Below are positions 868 through 12,544 of a stretch of 35,169 nucleotides of DNA, one piece after another. A model generated the notes under the pieces. That model saw nothing but the letters and a program-made list of their open reading frames with translations, did no database searches and was not told the origin of the DNA. Numbering within the stretch: position 1 is the stretch's first letter; the number at the start of each line of letters is the position of its first letter. A program made the position numbers and the translations under genes. The stretch comes from a virus, in IMG/VR virus record IMGVR_UViG_3300009370_000091, positions 1-35,169 of that record, one strand, 5' to 3'.

Positions 868-896
868 TTGACTCAGAGGTTATTTTTTAGTAAAAT
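868..896 (+). promoter_or_regulatory. Sigma70-type promoter
   Basis: TTGACT (868-873), a 17-bp spacer, then TAAAAT (891-896), followed by ATATCTATAG. It matches eight other promoters in the window in spacing, in the preceding TTC and in the downstream CTATA stretch. It faces the SANT/HTH-like gene at 942 and, beyond that, the large gene-free block. Confidence 0.8.
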
Positions 897-941: not shown

Positions 942-1256
942 ATGCAAGTTAACACAAATACAAACTACACGGAAAAAATGGTCACTACTATGCACGAGGT
1001 GTATACAGCAGAACCAACTAGAGACAGCGTGGAAGCTCTAGCAAAGACTTTTGGCAAAAGTACTAGAAGTATCATTGCCAAACTTTCCCGAGAAGGTATC
1101 TATATACCTATGGAAAGAAAGACTAAAACTGGAGAGCCGATTGTTCGCAAAGCAGAACTTGTTGCTCAGATTGAGTCTTATTTTGAAGATGAAATGCCAA
1201 GTTTAGTTAAAGCTACTAAAGCTGACCTACAAAAATTAGTGGAAAAACTACAGTAG
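942..1256 (+). CDS. SANT/Myb-like HTH protein, family copy 1
   Basis: A 104-residue protein with GGAG 6 nt before the ATG. Residues about 8-55 form a three-helix DNA-binding-like module: an N-terminal NYTEKMV helix, PTRDSVEALAKTF, then GKSTRSIIAKLSREGIY as the putative recognition helix. A linker (KTKTGEPIVRKAEL) and a C-terminal helical region follow. It is clearly paralogous to the gene at 3402 (NYTxxxV, PTRxxVE, GKSTxSIIxKLSREGxY, KTGE) and more distantly to those at 16247, 19227 and 6746 (minus). It is the first gene after a promoter. Probably a small phage DNA-binding regulator or nucleoid-type protein (inference); no function is established from sequence. Confidence 0.8.
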   Translation: MQVNTNTNYTEKMVTTMHEVYTAEPTRDSVEALAKTFGKSTRSIIAKLSREGIYIPMERKTKTGEPIVRKAELVAQIESYFEDEMPSLVKATKADLQKLVEKLQ

Positions 1257-1261
1257 TTTTA

Positions 1262-2160
1262 GGAGGGATTCTTTTTAAAGTGCAACATGAAGTTGAGCGC
1301 AAGCCAAATGGCATGGTAAGAATCCTAAACCTAACTGTCTAGATTCCCACGACAGTATAAAAGAAAGTAGGAAACAGAACTGAGAGGCGGGATTGATAGA
1401 GGCTAATTACCTCGAATGGATTAGATAGAAATATCTTGAACAGTCTGAGAGCGGAACATGGATACGATCTGCGTGATATAGTAGAGGATACGAAAAGCGT
1501 CAAGGACAAGGGAGTTGAAAAACTCATGTGACTTTAGGTGCAAATCAGTTCAAACTGCTGACTACTCCAGTATAAAATAAGTAGTAATAATAATAAGACT
1601 CAGACGATAGCGCAGAAATAGAATATGCGATCTAATACTCGGGAGTTCCGAGCGACTGATAAAGATAGTCGGAGTAGAAGGAGTGAAAAGCTCCACGATG
1701 TTAATCCAGTAAGGCTGGGAGTCGGTAGAACTACGAGGTGCAATTCCTTACAAAGATAGAGTCTTAAACTCAGCTCACGAGTATAAAATCGAGCCGTAGG
1801 AAGCAAACGAGAGAAAAGCTCCGTACTTGGAATGACGAGAAGGATACCTGCGCTTAGTGACCAGCAAAGAAGAAAAAGTCAATAGTGAGAACTTACAGCT
1901 AAAAGTGAAGTCGTGATTATATCCGTAAATGCACGAAAATATTTCGGGAGCGAAGGAAAACCTCAAAGGATACCCGAGAACTGAATACTGGTAAATCGCA
2001 ATCTCGTAAAAAAGAAACCATTACCACAAAGCCTTATACTAAAGAACTGTAGGTATAGGGTCTGATTGAGAACAATATTTGATAGTAATTAGGACACTCA
2101 GGTAATCATGGTAAATACCAAGAAAGGATAAACTATAAATGGTGGAGTAAGGTTGTGTGA
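1262..2160 (+). ncRNA. Candidate giant structured RNA (about 900 nt)
   Basis: There is no convincing gene on either strand across about 900 nt; composition is purine-rich on the plus strand with many GAAA- and GTAA-type loops. Helices seen by eye: GGATTCTT 1266-1273 with 1318-1325, enclosing two small hairpins; CTGTC 1335-1339/1351-1355; GAGTT 1512-1516/1521-1525 with a GAAA loop; a long-range AAGACTC 1595-1601 with GAGTCTT 1759-1765, enclosing hairpins at 1611-1629, 1638-1652, 1653-1671, 1680-1694 and 1706-1718; TCGGG 1944-1948/1973-1977; TGGTAA 1989-1994/2021-2026; CC(T)TATAC 2032-2039/2053-2059. Size, phage setting and nearby tRNA genes resemble the GOLLD and ROOL classes of ornate phage RNAs (established classes; assignment here is inference). 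It is probably transcribed from the promoter at 868. The true ends are uncertain; the 3' end may reach the terminator at 2560. Confidence 0.6.
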
Positions 2161-2207
2161 AGTCGATTAGTAAATATGTTTTTTTACACTATTGAAAAGG
2201 ATGGAAC

Positions 2208-2456
2208 ATGAAAAATATGAATGATCCTTATGTTGAAGCCTACTCGAATAATGGCATGATGGTGCAGTTGTCTAACAATGAGTATAAAATAAATAATATA
2301 AAAACCCGCGTGAGTGTTTATAATTTTCAACAGATGCGAAAACCAGAAAGAAAATTATACAAGAGTCCCCGAATGGTCTTTCGTAAATTGAGTATATCTC
2401 TATGTGGACTGGACTCTATCTTTCAAGCAGTAAATATTAACACCTTAGGGTTGTAA
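2208..2456 (+). CDS. Possible 82-aa protein downstream of the structured RNA
   Basis: AAGGA stands 6 nt before the ATG, and the first approximately 50 residues read like a real protein (DPYVEAYSNNGMMVQLSNNE, then a basic stretch). The last third is less convincing: it overlaps a possible GAGTCC/GGACTC helix, and further hairpins follow (CCTAC-ACA-GTAGG near 2468-2480). The reading frame may be genuine, or the 3' part may belong to the structured RNA, which would then run to the terminator at 2560. No family recognised. Confidence 0.4.
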   Translation: MKNMNDPYVEAYSNNGMMVQLSNNEYKINNIKTRVSVYNFQQMRKPERKLYKSPRMVFRKLSISLCGLDSIFQAVNINTLGL

Positions 2457-2514
2457 GTCTTGAGAGCCTACACAGTAGGAAAGTGAGTTAGAGTTCTTTC
2501 AAAACAAAACTCAG

Positions 2515-2560
2515 GAAGGGGTAGTTGTCAGTCGCTTAAACGCATATTACCCCTTCTTTT
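2515..2560 (+). terminator. Rho-independent terminator
   Basis: GAAGGGGTA (2515-2523) pairs with TACCCCTTC (2548-2556), followed by TTTT. It is a strong 9-bp stem with a 24-nt loop. It ends the transcript containing the SANT-like gene at 942, the structured RNA block and the small frame at 2208. Confidence 0.8.
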
Positions 2561-3727: not shown

Positions 3728-3802
3728 GGGGCTGTAGCTCAACGGGAGAGCATCTGCTTTGCAAGCAGAGGGTTGGAGGTTCGATTCCTCTCAGCTCCAC
3801 CA
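3728..3802 (+). tRNA. tRNA-Ala (anticodon TGC)
   Basis: The full cloverleaf can be read. The acceptor GGGGCTG pairs with CAGCTCC and has the G3-U70 pair that marks alanine tRNAs. The anticodon arm is TCTGC-TTTGCAA-GCAGA, the T-loop is GGTTCGATTCC, and the 3' ACCA end is encoded. It is the first of three tRNA genes within 700 nt. Confidence 0.95.
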
Positions 3803-4402: not shown

Positions 4403-4457
4403 CCTTGAAGCCAAATCGCAGACACCCAACAAACCTAACAACCTTGACGCCAAATCG
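4402..4457 (+). repeat. Two copies of a 17-nt direct repeat after the tRNA cluster
   Basis: ACCTTGAAGCCAAATCG (4402-4418) and ACCTTGACGCCAAATCG (4441-4457) differ at one base, 39 nt apart start to start. The first overlaps the 3' end of tRNA-Asp. A stretch continuing from copy 1 (GCCAAATCGCAGACAC) recurs with one change inside the gp46-like gene near 30911. Function unknown. Possible uses include a protein-binding site or a remnant of recombination at the tRNA end. Confidence 0.55.
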
Positions 4458-4977
4458 ATTATACTAAGGATAATTTCGATAAATTCAGCTTATACCCGTT
4501 AAGTTTACTTAAAGTAGTAAGTAAATAATGGTTTATATATTTTCGGTTTGGGGAAATTGTCTTTGAGTTTTTAAACGGAGTAAGCCCCATTTAATTTAAG
4601 AAAGTAGTTGTGATTTAAGTTTAAAAGACTTGTCGAATTAAAACGAGGTTAAAGAGTTGTCTTAAAGTAGCATTTAATTCCGTTTTCTCGACTACTTCGA
4701 CCATCCCTCCTAAGGGAGGGCTGTTCTCGTGTCTTCGAAACAACAGTTTGAATGAAATCTAAGATGACGAAGTCAATTAAAAATTTATAATATAATTATA
4801 CCATACTTTTTGACAAATGTAAAATTCTTTTTTCCTTAGGTGAATGTTTTAAAGTGTTTGTATAGGGTGAGTTGCCAGACAAAAAGTGCAATCTTCTATG
4901 GTAGCAAAGGGAGTGTGTTTGAAATGTTGCGCAAAAACGCCTAGAAATTTAGTAGACTAAAAATAAAAGTTATATTT
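4458..4977. other. Gene-free convergent region with several stem-loops
   Basis: About 520 nt with no plausible gene, between the tRNA cluster (plus) and the end of the minus-strand operon. Visible structure: TTTACTT 4504-4510 with AAGTAAA 4519-4525; a helix of GTCGA plus AAAACG (4632-4645) with CGTTTT plus TCGAC (4681-4692); a short CCCTCC-TAA-GGAGGG hairpin near 4705-4719; TTC(G)AAAC/GTTTGAA near 4735-4751. No clear intrinsic terminator for either converging transcript is seen. It could hold a second non-coding RNA. Confidence 0.4.
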
Positions 4978-5553
4978 TTATGTTTTGTTCGTGGTTCGAA
5001 ACCAAGTGATCATTGAATTTCTAACACCTTTGAGTACAGGAGTGACTCGATGTTTAAGGTGTGGTTTCATCAGAAGGACAGTATTTTTGTTTCGAGTAAA
5101 GGGAGGAAGTGTTAAATCTTCAATTTGAAAATCTCCTCCCTCGTACTCATCAGAGTCTGTCAGTTGAGCTATAATAGTTAGATGTCTAGGATCTTGTGCG
5201 CTCCCGTCTACGTGCCAATTATAAAAATTATGTCTTCTGTAAGTAGTGACTTGTACGGGCTCGGGCACTAAAGACCCCTTATCTAAGTTTATAGTTCTTC
5301 CAAACTCATTTGAGTTGTTAAAGAAACCATAGTACTCATCTGCCATATCTATCAACCATTCTCTAACAAAAGTATTGCTTTCATTATATTGCATGAATCT
5401 AACTTCTGAATCTCTTGTATTTTTATCTATATTTCTACCATCTATGAAACTTGGTATTGGTAAGTATCCAGTTAATACTTGTTCCATATGAGTAAGAATC
5501 TGAAGTGGAAGTGCGTTTTCTAGTATAATTGCTTTGTCTTTAATTAATTCCAT
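4978..5553 (-). CDS. 2-oxoglutarate/Fe(II)-dependent oxygenase
   Basis: A 191-residue protein of the phage PKHD-type/2OG-Fe(II) oxygenase group. The metal triad is visible as H114-x-D116 (YNWHVDG) and H168 (HRV), with R178 (GVRNS) placed to bind 2-oxoglutarate. The GGDFQIED stretch is typical of the double-stranded beta-helix core. Such enzymes hydroxylate proteins, nucleic acid bases or small molecules; the substrate here cannot be told. It is the last gene of the minus-strand operon and overlaps the endolysin gene by 10 nt. Confidence 0.88.
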   Translation of the reverse strand: MELIKDKAIILENALPLQILTHMEQVLTGYLPIPSFIDGRNIDKNTRDSEVRFMQYNESNTFVREWLIDMADEYYGFFNNSNEFGRTINLDKGSLVPEPVQVTTYRRHNFYNWHVDGSAQDPRHLTIIAQLTDSDEYEGGDFQIEDLTLPPFTRNKNTVLLMKPHLKHRVTPVLKGVRNSMITWFRTTNKT

Positions 5554-6062
5554 GTTCCCGTTACTGATTCATTTGCAAAAAGGATAGCTTCTTTTTCTCG
5601 CCTCCTAGTAAGTCCTAAACTGACTTCTCCATTAACTCTGTTCCATTTTCTTAGCTCATCTGGAACTAGATCAAATTTCTTCTCATTTACATATTTTAAT
5701 AAGGTGGATTTCGCGAACTGCGTTGCTCCAATATTATATATAAAGGATAATAATGCAGTATATTGATTCTGGGTTAGTTCAACTCGGACAAGTCTTTGAA
5801 GTTGTAATTCGAAGGCAATTAGATCAGTATTTAAGTATGTATTTGCTTTATGAGTGCTTATACTATCGCCTTCCTTGACTCCGCGAGTATGACCATAACC
5901 TATAGTCCATACACCTCCTTCATCTTGGTATGCGTTGTGTTCTAGTCCTTCGACTTCACGAATAAAATTTAGTTCTTCGTCTTTCAACAGACCACCTTTT
6001 ATCATCCAAATCCCTAGTAGTATTACTGCTATTATTGTTGTATTAAGTCCCTTATGAAACAT
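5544..6062 (-). CDS. GH24 endolysin with N-terminal signal-anchor
   Basis: A 172-residue phage lysozyme that cleaves peptidoglycan. The catalytic triad is E38, D47 and T53, with the spacing of T4 lysozyme E11-D20-T26, in REVEGLE, YQDEGG and WTIGYGHT. Residues about 8-26 are an uncleaved hydrophobic segment of modest strength (TTIIAVILLGIWMIKGGLL), the layout of SAR endolysins, which reach the periplasm through Sec and are released when the membrane is depolarised. It overlaps a 46-residue membrane protein upstream that could be its holin partner. The spanin genes are on the other strand near 9707-10502. Confidence 0.93.
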   Translation of the reverse strand: MFHKGLNTTIIAVILLGIWMIKGGLLKDEELNFIREVEGLEHNAYQDEGGVWTIGYGHTRGVKEGDSISTHKANTYLNTDLIAFELQLQRLVRVELTQNQYTALLSFIYNIGATQFAKSTLLKYVNEKKFDLVPDELRKWNRVNGEVSLGLTRRREKEAILFANESVTGTWN

Positions 6063-6172
6063 AATATAATTATTATCCCTGCTGTTGTTGCTAAAAATGA
6101 TGCGACATTCTTCTTGTCGTAGTCATCTAAATTCATTAAAAATTCCTTTATCTCAGTTATAAACTTACTCAT
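6032..6172 (-). CDS. Single-span membrane protein, 46 aa, pinholin candidate
   Basis: AAGGA stands 7 nt before the ATG. A charged N-terminus (MSKFITEIKEFLMNLDDYDKK) is followed by one membrane span (FLATTAGIIIILCFI) and a short tail RDLIQQ. Its last 31 nt overlap the start of the endolysin gene in another frame. Position, size and topology suggest an accessory of the SAR endolysin such as a pinholin or antiholin (inference). It is easily missed because it is so short. Confidence 0.6.
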   Translation of the reverse strand: MSKFITEIKEFLMNLDDYDKKNVASFLATTAGIIIILCFIRDLIQQ

Positions 6173-6332: not shown

Positions 6333-6520
6333 CTTAATTTACCTGCCATTTTTGCTAACCTTCTTTTCTTAGTAGGTTTAGTATAATGTCTTCGTTCCCT
6401 GAACTCTTGAAGTCTTCCGTCACTATTGACTGCACGCTTAAATTTCCTAAGTGCAAAATCAAAATTGTTCTTTCTTACTTCTACTTTCAAATTAATCTTG
6501 TGTGAGTTTTGTCCACTCAC
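6272..6520 (-). CDS. rpsU: Ribosomal protein bS21
   Basis: The body matches bacterial S21: KVEVRKNNFDFALRKFKR, then LQEFRERRHYTKPTKKRR, with a basic tail ending KKKMY. S21 sits at the 30S platform by the anti-Shine-Dalgarno region and affects initiation. Phage copies may replace the host protein to bias translation (established idea for marine phage S21, not proven). The GTG at 6520 gives 82 residues but its GGGA is too close. A TTG at 6490 would give 72 residues, closer to the usual approximately 71 and starting just after the glutaredoxin stop, so it may be the real start. Confidence 0.88.
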   Translation of the reverse strand: MSGQNSHKINLKVEVRKNNFDFALRKFKRAVNSDGRLQEFRERRHYTKPTKKRRLAKMAGKLRWRRKERELDPIRFGKKKMY

Positions 6521-6749
6521 TCCCTTTTCTTTGGAAAAAATCTTTTAGCTCTGTAAACCCACCTACATATTCTTTATCAAAGAATATCTGTGGAACAGTT
6601 CTAGGCTCGAACCCTAGTTTAAACTTTATCCAGTCCTTATCAACAGTTGTAATATCGACTGCTCGATATTCTACACCTGCACTATCACATAATTGTTTTG
6701 CTCTATCACAATAAACACAATTATCTGTCCCATAAATTGTTATCATCAT
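6492..6749 (-). CDS. Glutaredoxin
   Basis: About 85 residues from the ATG at 6749, which overlaps the TGA of the preceding gene; an upstream in-frame GTG at 6773 is less likely. The active site is CVYC in ITIYGTDNCVYCDRAKQL, followed by the cis-proline TVP (RTVPQIF) and GG (VGGFTEL) typical of class I glutaredoxins. It reduces disulfides using glutathione and could supply electrons to phage ribonucleotide reductase or reset oxidised proteins. The class II reductase in this window takes external dithiols at its C-terminal cysteine pair. Confidence 0.92.
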   Translation of the reverse strand: MMITIYGTDNCVYCDRAKQLCDSAGVEYRAVDITTVDKDWIKFKLGFEPRTVPQIFFDKEYVGGFTELKDFFQRKGSEWTKLTQD

Positions 6750-6940
6750 CTTCTTGTCGTTGTAAAGCTCCACCCCTTTTTTCGTAGGCGTTTCACTCTT
6801 GACCTAATAGCATTTTCACTTCTGCCTTCAAAGATTAACCTCAGTTGCTTCATGGATATCTTTCCATAATACTGTTTTAATAGGTTGTCTTCCGTGTCAT
6901 CCCATGCTGGTCTTGTCTGTTTTGTGTTCTGTTTTTTCAA
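6746..6940 (-). CDS. SANT/Myb-like HTH protein, 64 aa (minus-strand member)
   Basis: A single SANT/Myb-type module: AWDDTEDNLLKQYYG (helix 1 with the Trp-Asp-Glu pattern), KISMKQLRLIFEG (helix 2), RSENAIRSRVKRLRKKGW (recognition helix). The recognition-helix block is like the AIRSRxxRLRKxG of phage and bacterial SANT-like proteins and recalls the S-IIxKLSREG block of the plus-strand family. It is the first gene of the minus operon, just behind its only promoter, as expected for a regulator. Confidence 0.75.
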   Translation of the reverse strand: MKKQNTKQTRPAWDDTEDNLLKQYYGKISMKQLRLIFEGRSENAIRSRVKRLRKKGWSFTTTRR

Positions 6941-11386: not shown

Positions 11387-12544
11387 ATGGATCTAGCATA
11401 CTCGCTTAATACCTTCTATTTTTTATTGTCTGGTGTCTTAGTTATGTTTATGGCGGCAGGCTTTACAATGTTAGAAGCAGGATCGGTTCGTTCAAAGAAT
11501 GTAATCGAAATTTTAATAAAGAATATCGCACTTTATAGTGTGGCTTCTATAACTTACCTACTACTAGGATATACATTAATGTATGGGTGGAGTGATCCTC
11601 CAGATCATGCTTTAATGGCAGACTTCTTCTTTCAAGCAGTCTTTGTAGCAACCGCAATGTCGGTAGTTTCAGGTGCAGTAGCAGAAAGAAAAAGACTTTG
11701 GACTTTCTTAGGGTTTGCAGCAATATTTACTGCTTTAATATACCCTATACAAGGTGCTTGGTCATGGGGTGGTGGTTTTCTAAGTGAATTAGGATTCTCA
11801 GACTTCGCAGGATCAGGTATAGTTCATATGGCAGGAGCAGCCGCGGCTTTAGCAGCAGTACTTTTGATTGGACCAAGGATAGGTAAGTATGATGAAAATG
11901 GAAACCCTCAACCAATACATGGTTCTAATGCAGTAGCCGTTACACTCGGAACTTTAGTTTTATGGTTTGGTTGGTTTGGATTTAATGGTGGATCTCAATT
12001 ATCTATTATAGGTATGGATAATGCTAATGCAGTAGCACAGATTTTTGTGAATACAAATACAGCAGCTGCCGCAGGACTTTTATCTGCTATGATATTATCT
12101 AAACTATGGTTAGGTAAAACCGCGTTAAATGCAGTATGTAATGGAGCTTTAGCAGGATTAGTAGTTATAACAGCAGATCCTGTAACACCTAGTCCTCAAA
12201 TGGCGGTTGTATATGGATCTTTAGGAGGATTATTAGTACCACTTTCAATGAGTTATCTTGAAAAGTGGGGAATTGATGACCCAGTAGGAGCAATAAGCGT
12301 GCATGGAGTAGCAGGTATATTAGGACTTATGTTAGTACCAATACTAAATACAGATGCAACTTTTTTAGCACAGGGTATAGGAACTTTAAGTATATTTAGT
12401 TTTGTCTTCGGAACTTCTTATGCAGTATGGTTTATAATGAAGAAAACAATAGGAATTAGACCAACAAGAGAAGAAGAAGTAGGCGGACAAGATATGTGGG
12501 AAACAGGTAATAGTGCTTATCCCGAATTTATGAAACAACAATGA
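11387..12544 (+). CDS. amt: Ammonium transporter, Amt/MEP/Rh family
   Basis: A 385-residue polytopic membrane protein, close to full length for Amt, with about 11 membrane helices. The substrate-site elements are intact: DFAGSGIVHMAGA carries the conserved Asp and first pore His, and ISVHGVAGILG the second pore His; WFGWFGFNGGS and the SGAVAER segment correspond to the gate and recruitment-site regions. It conducts ammonium across the inner membrane. No GlnK-type regulator is seen nearby. It has AAAAGGA before the ATG and an ATGA overlap with the next gene. It is probably used to raise nitrogen supply during infection (inference). Confidence 0.96.
   Translation: MDLAYSLNTFYFLLSGVLVMFMAAGFTMLEAGSVRSKNVIEILIKNIALYSVASITYLLLGYTLMYGWSDPPDHALMADFFFQAVFVATAMSVVSGAVAERKRLWTFLGFAAIFTALIYPIQGAWSWGGGFLSELGFSDFAGSGIVHMAGAAAALAAVLLIGPRIGKYDENGNPQPIHGSNAVAVTLGTLVLWFGWFGFNGGSQLSIIGMDNANAVAQIFVNTNTAAAAGLLSAMILSKLWLGKTALNAVCNGALAGLVVITADPVTPSPQMAVVYGSLGGLLVPLSMSYLEKWGIDDPVGAISVHGVAGILGLMLVPILNTDATFLAQGIGTLSIFSFVFGTSYAVWFIMKKTIGIRPTREEEVGGQDMWETGNSAYPEFMKQQ

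Follow-up and report, generated by a model that had tools for sequence, protein, structure and literature searches.

A putative giant structured RNA at a conserved locus of T5-like environmental phages

Few giant ornate RNAs of phages have been described, namely GOLLD and ROOL, for which recent cryo-EM showed RNA-only cages; the GOLLD cage is a 14-mer. Both are known as large phage RNAs that lie near tRNA islands and assemble into RNA-only cages, their function being unknown (PMC12286853). GOLLD is longer than 800 nt, is encoded by phages or prophages, often near tRNA genes, and has a conserved and a variable part (PMC12286853).

The DNA considered here (the window) is a whole viral record of 35,169 bp. 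It contains genes for DNA polymerase, NAD ligase, DnaB, SbcC and ribonucleotide reductase, and the best matches of the polymerase are T5-like phages (43-44% identity); the gene set and these matches suggest that the window is a fragment of a T5-like phage. It also contains a gene for an AmtB-type ammonium transporter (11387-12544; Pfam PF00909, E 3e-89), a possible auxiliary metabolic gene.

We believe that a stretch of the window encodes a giant structured phage RNA, and that this RNA belongs to an undescribed, modular and fast-evolving superfamily occupying a single conserved locus in T5-like phages from the environment. The probability that we attach to this statement, about 0.85, concerns the class of RNA and not its mechanism. 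The core of the sequence-only reading, a giant structured phage RNA, withstood both tests that could have told against it: compensatory changes were found, and substitutions of a codon-like pattern were not.

Comparison with described RNA families

The element resembles GOLLD in being a giant phage noncoding RNA (here about 1.3 kb, in a viral record) with tRNAs nearby; the tRNA cluster noticed downstream of the block consists of three tRNAs (at 3728, 4242 and 4328), about 1.2 kb downstream of the giant RNA. ROOL is likewise a large noncoding RNA with many helices, encoded by phages and prophages close to tRNA islands. It is tempting to regard the element as a divergent GOLLD or ROOL RNA, considering that its size, phage setting and downstream tRNAs fit the published descriptions (PMC12286853); however, we find this very unlikely. 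The GOLLD model RF02032 (gathering threshold 150 bits), run with no positive control, matched none of 17 records (the window and 16 relatives), and its best score was 6 bits, in one of the relatives. The ROOL model RF03087 (99.1 bits) matched neither the window nor the 16 relatives, and the control genomes gave no ROOL match as well. At looser thresholds, neither model matched at E<=10 in the block or at E<=3 in five relatives.

In contrast to GOLLD, the element shows no sequence or covariance-model match and no common 3' domain was detected; its module order differs between groups, and its locus is marked by a D5-like ORF. It differs from ROOL in lacking a covariance-model match and in size (about 0.9-1.4 kb here against the 574-position ROOL model). 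The block had been proposed to be either a divergent member of these families or a new class; the likeness in size and setting holds, membership is opposed by RF02032 and RF03087, and a new class is favoured.

The same applies to Rfam 15 as a whole, where no family, GOLLD and ROOL included, matched the giant RNA; at gathering level, only tRNAs were found in the window and in the scanned relatives of groups 1-4 (defined below). This, together with the intergenic position of the element, bears on the proposal that it is a catalytic or mobile RNA (a group I or II intron, a permuted tmRNA or similar), which we consider highly improbable. Phage introns are known, and in two contigs (L011 and L012, 5290-5668 in each) a permuted tmRNA (RF04321, 103 bits) directly follows the D5-like ORF, i.e., stands at the place of the giant RNA; it too is noncoding and near a tRNA. 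However, the RF04321 match is confined to these two contigs, and the window has neither such a match nor a detected tRNA-like domain. A group I intron model reached 11.8 bits in the window, on the minus strand and below the gathering threshold of 50, and no host gene is split.

Limits of the element and coding potential

The features of the element and its surroundings are listed in Table 1. The sequence-only reading had ended the block at 2160; the element continues to an intrinsic terminator at 2515-2560, so that it spans about 1258-2560 and the block first noticed is its 5' two thirds. The closing stem, taken at first for 8 bp (1266-1273/1318-1325), is present and has 9 bp. The complementary arms of the long-range 7-bp stem are also present, in a segment that is missing or replaced in both near relatives (L007 and L002).

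Table 1. Features of the putative giant RNA and of its 5' flank (window coordinates)
Feature	Position	Strand	Basis or remark
Promoter-like site TTGACT-17-TAAAAT, 5' of ORF 942	868..896	+	Recurs in L002 and L007
ORF 942, small D5-like / DNA-binding protein ORF	942..1256	+	PHROG 1725 and 323, weak; syntenic marker immediately 5' of the RNA
Putative giant noncoding structured RNA gene, ~1.3 kb	about 1258..2560	+	Synteny, covariation, non-coding pattern, module models
P1 closing stem, 5' arm GGGATTCTT	1265..1273	+	Pairs with 1318-1326
P1 closing stem, 3' arm AAGAATCCT	1318..1326	+	Double-sided changes, hand alignment
Module T hairpin with bulged A, UUG[A]GC-loop-GCCAA; loop variable (GCAA, UAAC, long hairpin)	1293..1307	+	Core motif by eye
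P2 hairpin ACTGTC/GACAGT; AGCGT/ACGCT in L002	1334..1356	+	
Hairpin CTACT/AGTAG, loop CCAGTATAAAATA	1562..1584	+	Retained in L007, similar form in L002; blast match
Long-range stem AAGACTC/GAGTCTT, 1595-1601/1759-1765	1595..1765	+	Read in sequence
Module B: CGTGATTAT and covarying 5-bp stem, C....AA loop	1912..1949	+	CM R1 from other groups, E 1.6e-4
ORF-like insert	2223..2384	+	Near-identical in L007 but frameshifted; absent from L002
Module A: UUUCGUAAAUU/UAUGUG internal-loop hairpin, core 2373-2411; outer stem GAGTCC/GGACTC	2363..2416	+	CM R2 from group 3, E 1.4e-4
3' domain stem CTTTCAAG/CTTGAGAG	2420..2466	+	Nearly invariant
Hairpin GAGTT/AACTC; GTGTT/AACAC in L007, GGGTT/AACTC in L002; 12-nt loop conserved	2491..2512	+	
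Intrinsic terminator GAAGGGGTA...TACCCCTTC-TTTT	2515..2560	+	Both sides of the stem differ in L002

The claim that the block holds no convincing gene is upheld: the block has no conserved protein gene, and the whole interval from ORF 942 to ORF 2601 contains no convincing one. In the 3' part of the block, the substitutions between the window and L007 are distributed as 25/27/35 by codon position, and 8 of the 10 indels between these sequences are not multiples of three. The noncoding unit gives 52/54/53 and 99/95/93 in two groups of relatives, so codon-like substitution is absent from all three comparisons; the flanking ORFs are periodic (14/10/42, 12/4/21 and 13/10/27). An ORF-like stretch at 2208-2456, which contains the insert of Table 1, has a frameshift in L007, is missing in L002, and had no match in Pfam, PHROG or cultured phages.

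Relatives, covariation and hairpin modules

The window has two near relatives, L002 and L007, whose flanking proteins are 76-99% identical to its own. Within this window group, the block has diverged strongly, both in its sequence and in its length (about 990, 1120 and 1300 nt), while islands are conserved; in the central part of the window RNA (about 1390-1910), a short stretch alone aligns with L002. A scan with a second D5-like ORF gave 39 further contig loci. The order of D5-like ORF, 1.0-2.2 kb of noncoding DNA and ORF 2601 occurs in 13 distinct complete loci, duplicates aside, and the window element has the same position between the two ORFs.

Noncoding units of about 0.9-1.4 kb occupy the locus in the two near relatives and in 14 more distant phage contigs, with one further partial unit; counting the window, this amounts to 17 distinct complete members in four groups and one partial member. 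The three other groups are group 2 (L034, L041, L042), group 3 (L017, L028, L029, later L064-L067, and the partial L019) and group 4 (L020, L023, L030, L051). No match was found in the cultured-phage collection, either for the block by similarity search or for ORFs 942 and 2601 by tblastn; the holin-like ORF had a single weak match there, which is not syntenic. Our search of open-access papers found no description of the D5-like ORF / ORF 2601 locus. One more candidate relative (L008), proposed by a match to the 5' motif pattern, proved to be a chance match in GC-rich coding sequence.

Concerning the helices, folding energy is of little help. The MFE z-score is -1.85 for 1258-2160 but falls as low as -5 to -6 in coding stretches of this genome; we rejected energy z-scores as evidence because the coding controls reach -6. 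Some coding alignments also have low RNAalifold energies. It is the counts of double-sided pair changes that discriminate, not the energies. The claim of many helices therefore divides: by folding energy they are not above chance, but double-sided changes and module homology in the relatives exceed it.

Compensatory changes are present in the groups of relatives and in the 3' domain of the window group. Group 4 has 41 double-sided pair changes (column shuffles: mean 12, maximum 21), group 2 has 36 (shuffle mean 19, maximum 25), and the seven members of group 3 also have 36 (shuffle mean 12, maximum 23). With only three members, group 3 came out narrowly above its shuffles (64 vs a maximum of 58), and the seven-member set was used instead. 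Coding controls from the same loci show no excess (11 vs 10, 18 vs 16, 2 vs 3, 18 vs 14 and 14 vs 20).

Direct covariation is limited in the window group, as it has three members. Its 3' domain contains 7 double-sided changes, whereas 200 shuffles yielded at most 6; the window and L007 alone show no excess (6 vs a shuffle mean of 6.7), since their sequences are too similar. The automatic three-way alignment of the whole group misaligned L002, and its pair list was discarded for this reason. Owing to misalignment of the P1 arm, the automatic covariation test of the 5' domain did not reach significance, and covariation in this domain is read from the hand alignment only. In the hand-aligned helices of the three sequences, 11 of 34 pairs are changed on both sides; the figure is five of nine for P1 (GGGATTCTT/AAGAATCCT in the window, CTCGCTCTC/GAGAGTGAG in L002) and four of nine for the terminator stem.

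Three hairpins, designated modules A, B and T, recur between groups. In group 3, module A (UUUCGUAAAUU-hairpin-UAUGUG within a covarying stem) has 100% of cells paired and five double-changed pairs, a number unreached in 500 shuffles. Module B (GAUUAU, a 5-bp stem and a C....AA loop) has four double-changed pairs, and module T (UUG[A]GC...GCCAA) covaries in other groups.

Covariance models were built for modules B (CM R1, from other groups) and A (CM R2, from group 3) with no sequences of the window group. They identified window positions 1912-1949 (E 1.6e-4) and 2373-2411 (E 1.4e-4), respectively; the E-values are rough, and these sites are the sole good matches of the two models within the window. 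The window thus shares the covarying modules A and B with the other groups. The module T model (CM R3) did not find 1293-1307, where the core motif is visible by eye; because of this miss, we take the homology of the window hairpin to module T of groups 3 and 4 as no more than suggestive.

Among viral contigs, 15 stretches matched a DNA pattern describing module B. Two of them are L007 and the contig of L002, and six adjoin a D5-like ORF (the contigs of L028 and L029 and the new L064-L067); the other seven have no D5-like ORF and no modules A and C. Among genome contigs, the pattern gave 47 matches, roughly the chance estimate, and the best E-value of CM R1 in this pre-selected set was 0.011. 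The modules are arranged as T..B..A in the window group and as A..B..C..T in group 3, so they have moved relative to each other.

These results bear on another explanation, i.e., decayed protein genes or normal intergenic DNA in which hairpins arise by chance. Phage intergenic DNA changes fast, the MFE is only mildly low, and there is one ORF-like insert (2223-2384), all of which such an explanation would accommodate; it is contradicted by the missing codon periodicity, the frame-breaking indels, covariation above the controls, module homology across groups and the strict synteny, and we give it very little weight.

Transcription signals, possible role and neighbouring units

Transcription signals were called by consensus only. 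The consensus promoter reported ahead of the block exists, but it lies about 370 nt upstream and fronts ORF 942-1256 rather than the RNA. Promoter-like sites are no commoner in the region than in shuffles (6 found vs 4.9 expected), and the site at 868-896 is the sole candidate that recurs in both near relatives. Its recurrence 5' of ORF 942 points to co-transcription, and judging by these signals the RNA of the window group probably shares a transcript with ORF 942; no promoter was found directly 5' of the RNA in this group. In most members of groups 2, 3 and 4, the unit has its own strong TTGACA-17-TATAAT promoter after the D5-like ORF and terminator-like ends, and a further promoter serves the next gene.

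The lack of an own promoter in the window group means that co-transcription with the D5-like ORF followed by processing, or a role in cis, has to be considered. As a cis-acting element, the sequence would be a structured 3' UTR of ORF 942 (for stability or autoregulation) or a leader of downstream genes. The RNA indeed begins only a few bases past the ORF 942 stop in the window group, and ORF 2601 is close behind the terminator; nonetheless, the unit in groups 2, 3 and 4 is delimited by its own strong promoter and terminator with the next gene promoted separately, and about 1 kb of multi-domain structure is, in general, too much for a UTR. We consider a UTR improbable; the promoters of the relatives favour a separate RNA.

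We presume that the giant RNA would be transcribed during infection, together with the D5-like ORF here and from its own promoter in the relatives, and that the product would act as RNA and not as a message. It may fold into a multi-domain scaffold, in which protein or RNA could dock at the few conserved hairpins (A, B and T), the remainder being variable spacer and scaffold. On the analogy of GOLLD and ROOL, an RNA particle or scaffold acting in trans appears to be the likeliest mode of action, at roughly even odds for the scaffold. Self-assembly into a homo-oligomer seems less likely. A search for self-complementary hairpin loops, a sign of homodimers, gave none in the window group. More tentatively, and somewhat short of even odds, the superfamily could be a route by which phages arrived at a large ornate RNA machine for a third time, independently of GOLLD and ROOL. 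In that case it would evolve as hairpin modules are shuffled, gained and lost, and would work during infection as a particle made of RNA alone or of RNA and protein.

If the superfamily is indeed independent, with a size and setting like those of GOLLD and ROOL, it would suggest that kilobase-scale RNA machines evolved repeatedly in phages. The common but rearranged modules show on which hairpins selection acts, which makes a hunt for a binding partner possible. The locus also suggests that current RNA libraries overlook entire classes in environmental phages, owing to the overly fast turnover of the sequence that separates the short modules.

Other noncoding units were noticed in the same setting. 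Most of the group 3 and group 4 members (L051, at 2475-2690, L020, L023, L030, L028 and L029) have a second strong promoter about 125-180 nt upstream of that of the giant RNA, which suggests a separate small RNA. Near the D5 locus, L011 (about 6360-6850) and L013 (about 5850-6150) have further noncoding units, about 500 nt and 300 nt long, respectively, which look bounded by promoter and terminator; the module A model gives E 0.075 at L011 6492-6535. In the window, a second long noncoding block (4403-4978) lies between tRNA-Asp and a convergent 2OG-Fe(II) oxygenase gene; it is 84% identical in L002 and 79% in L007, has a short match in L028, and may represent either a regulatory region or a further structured RNA.
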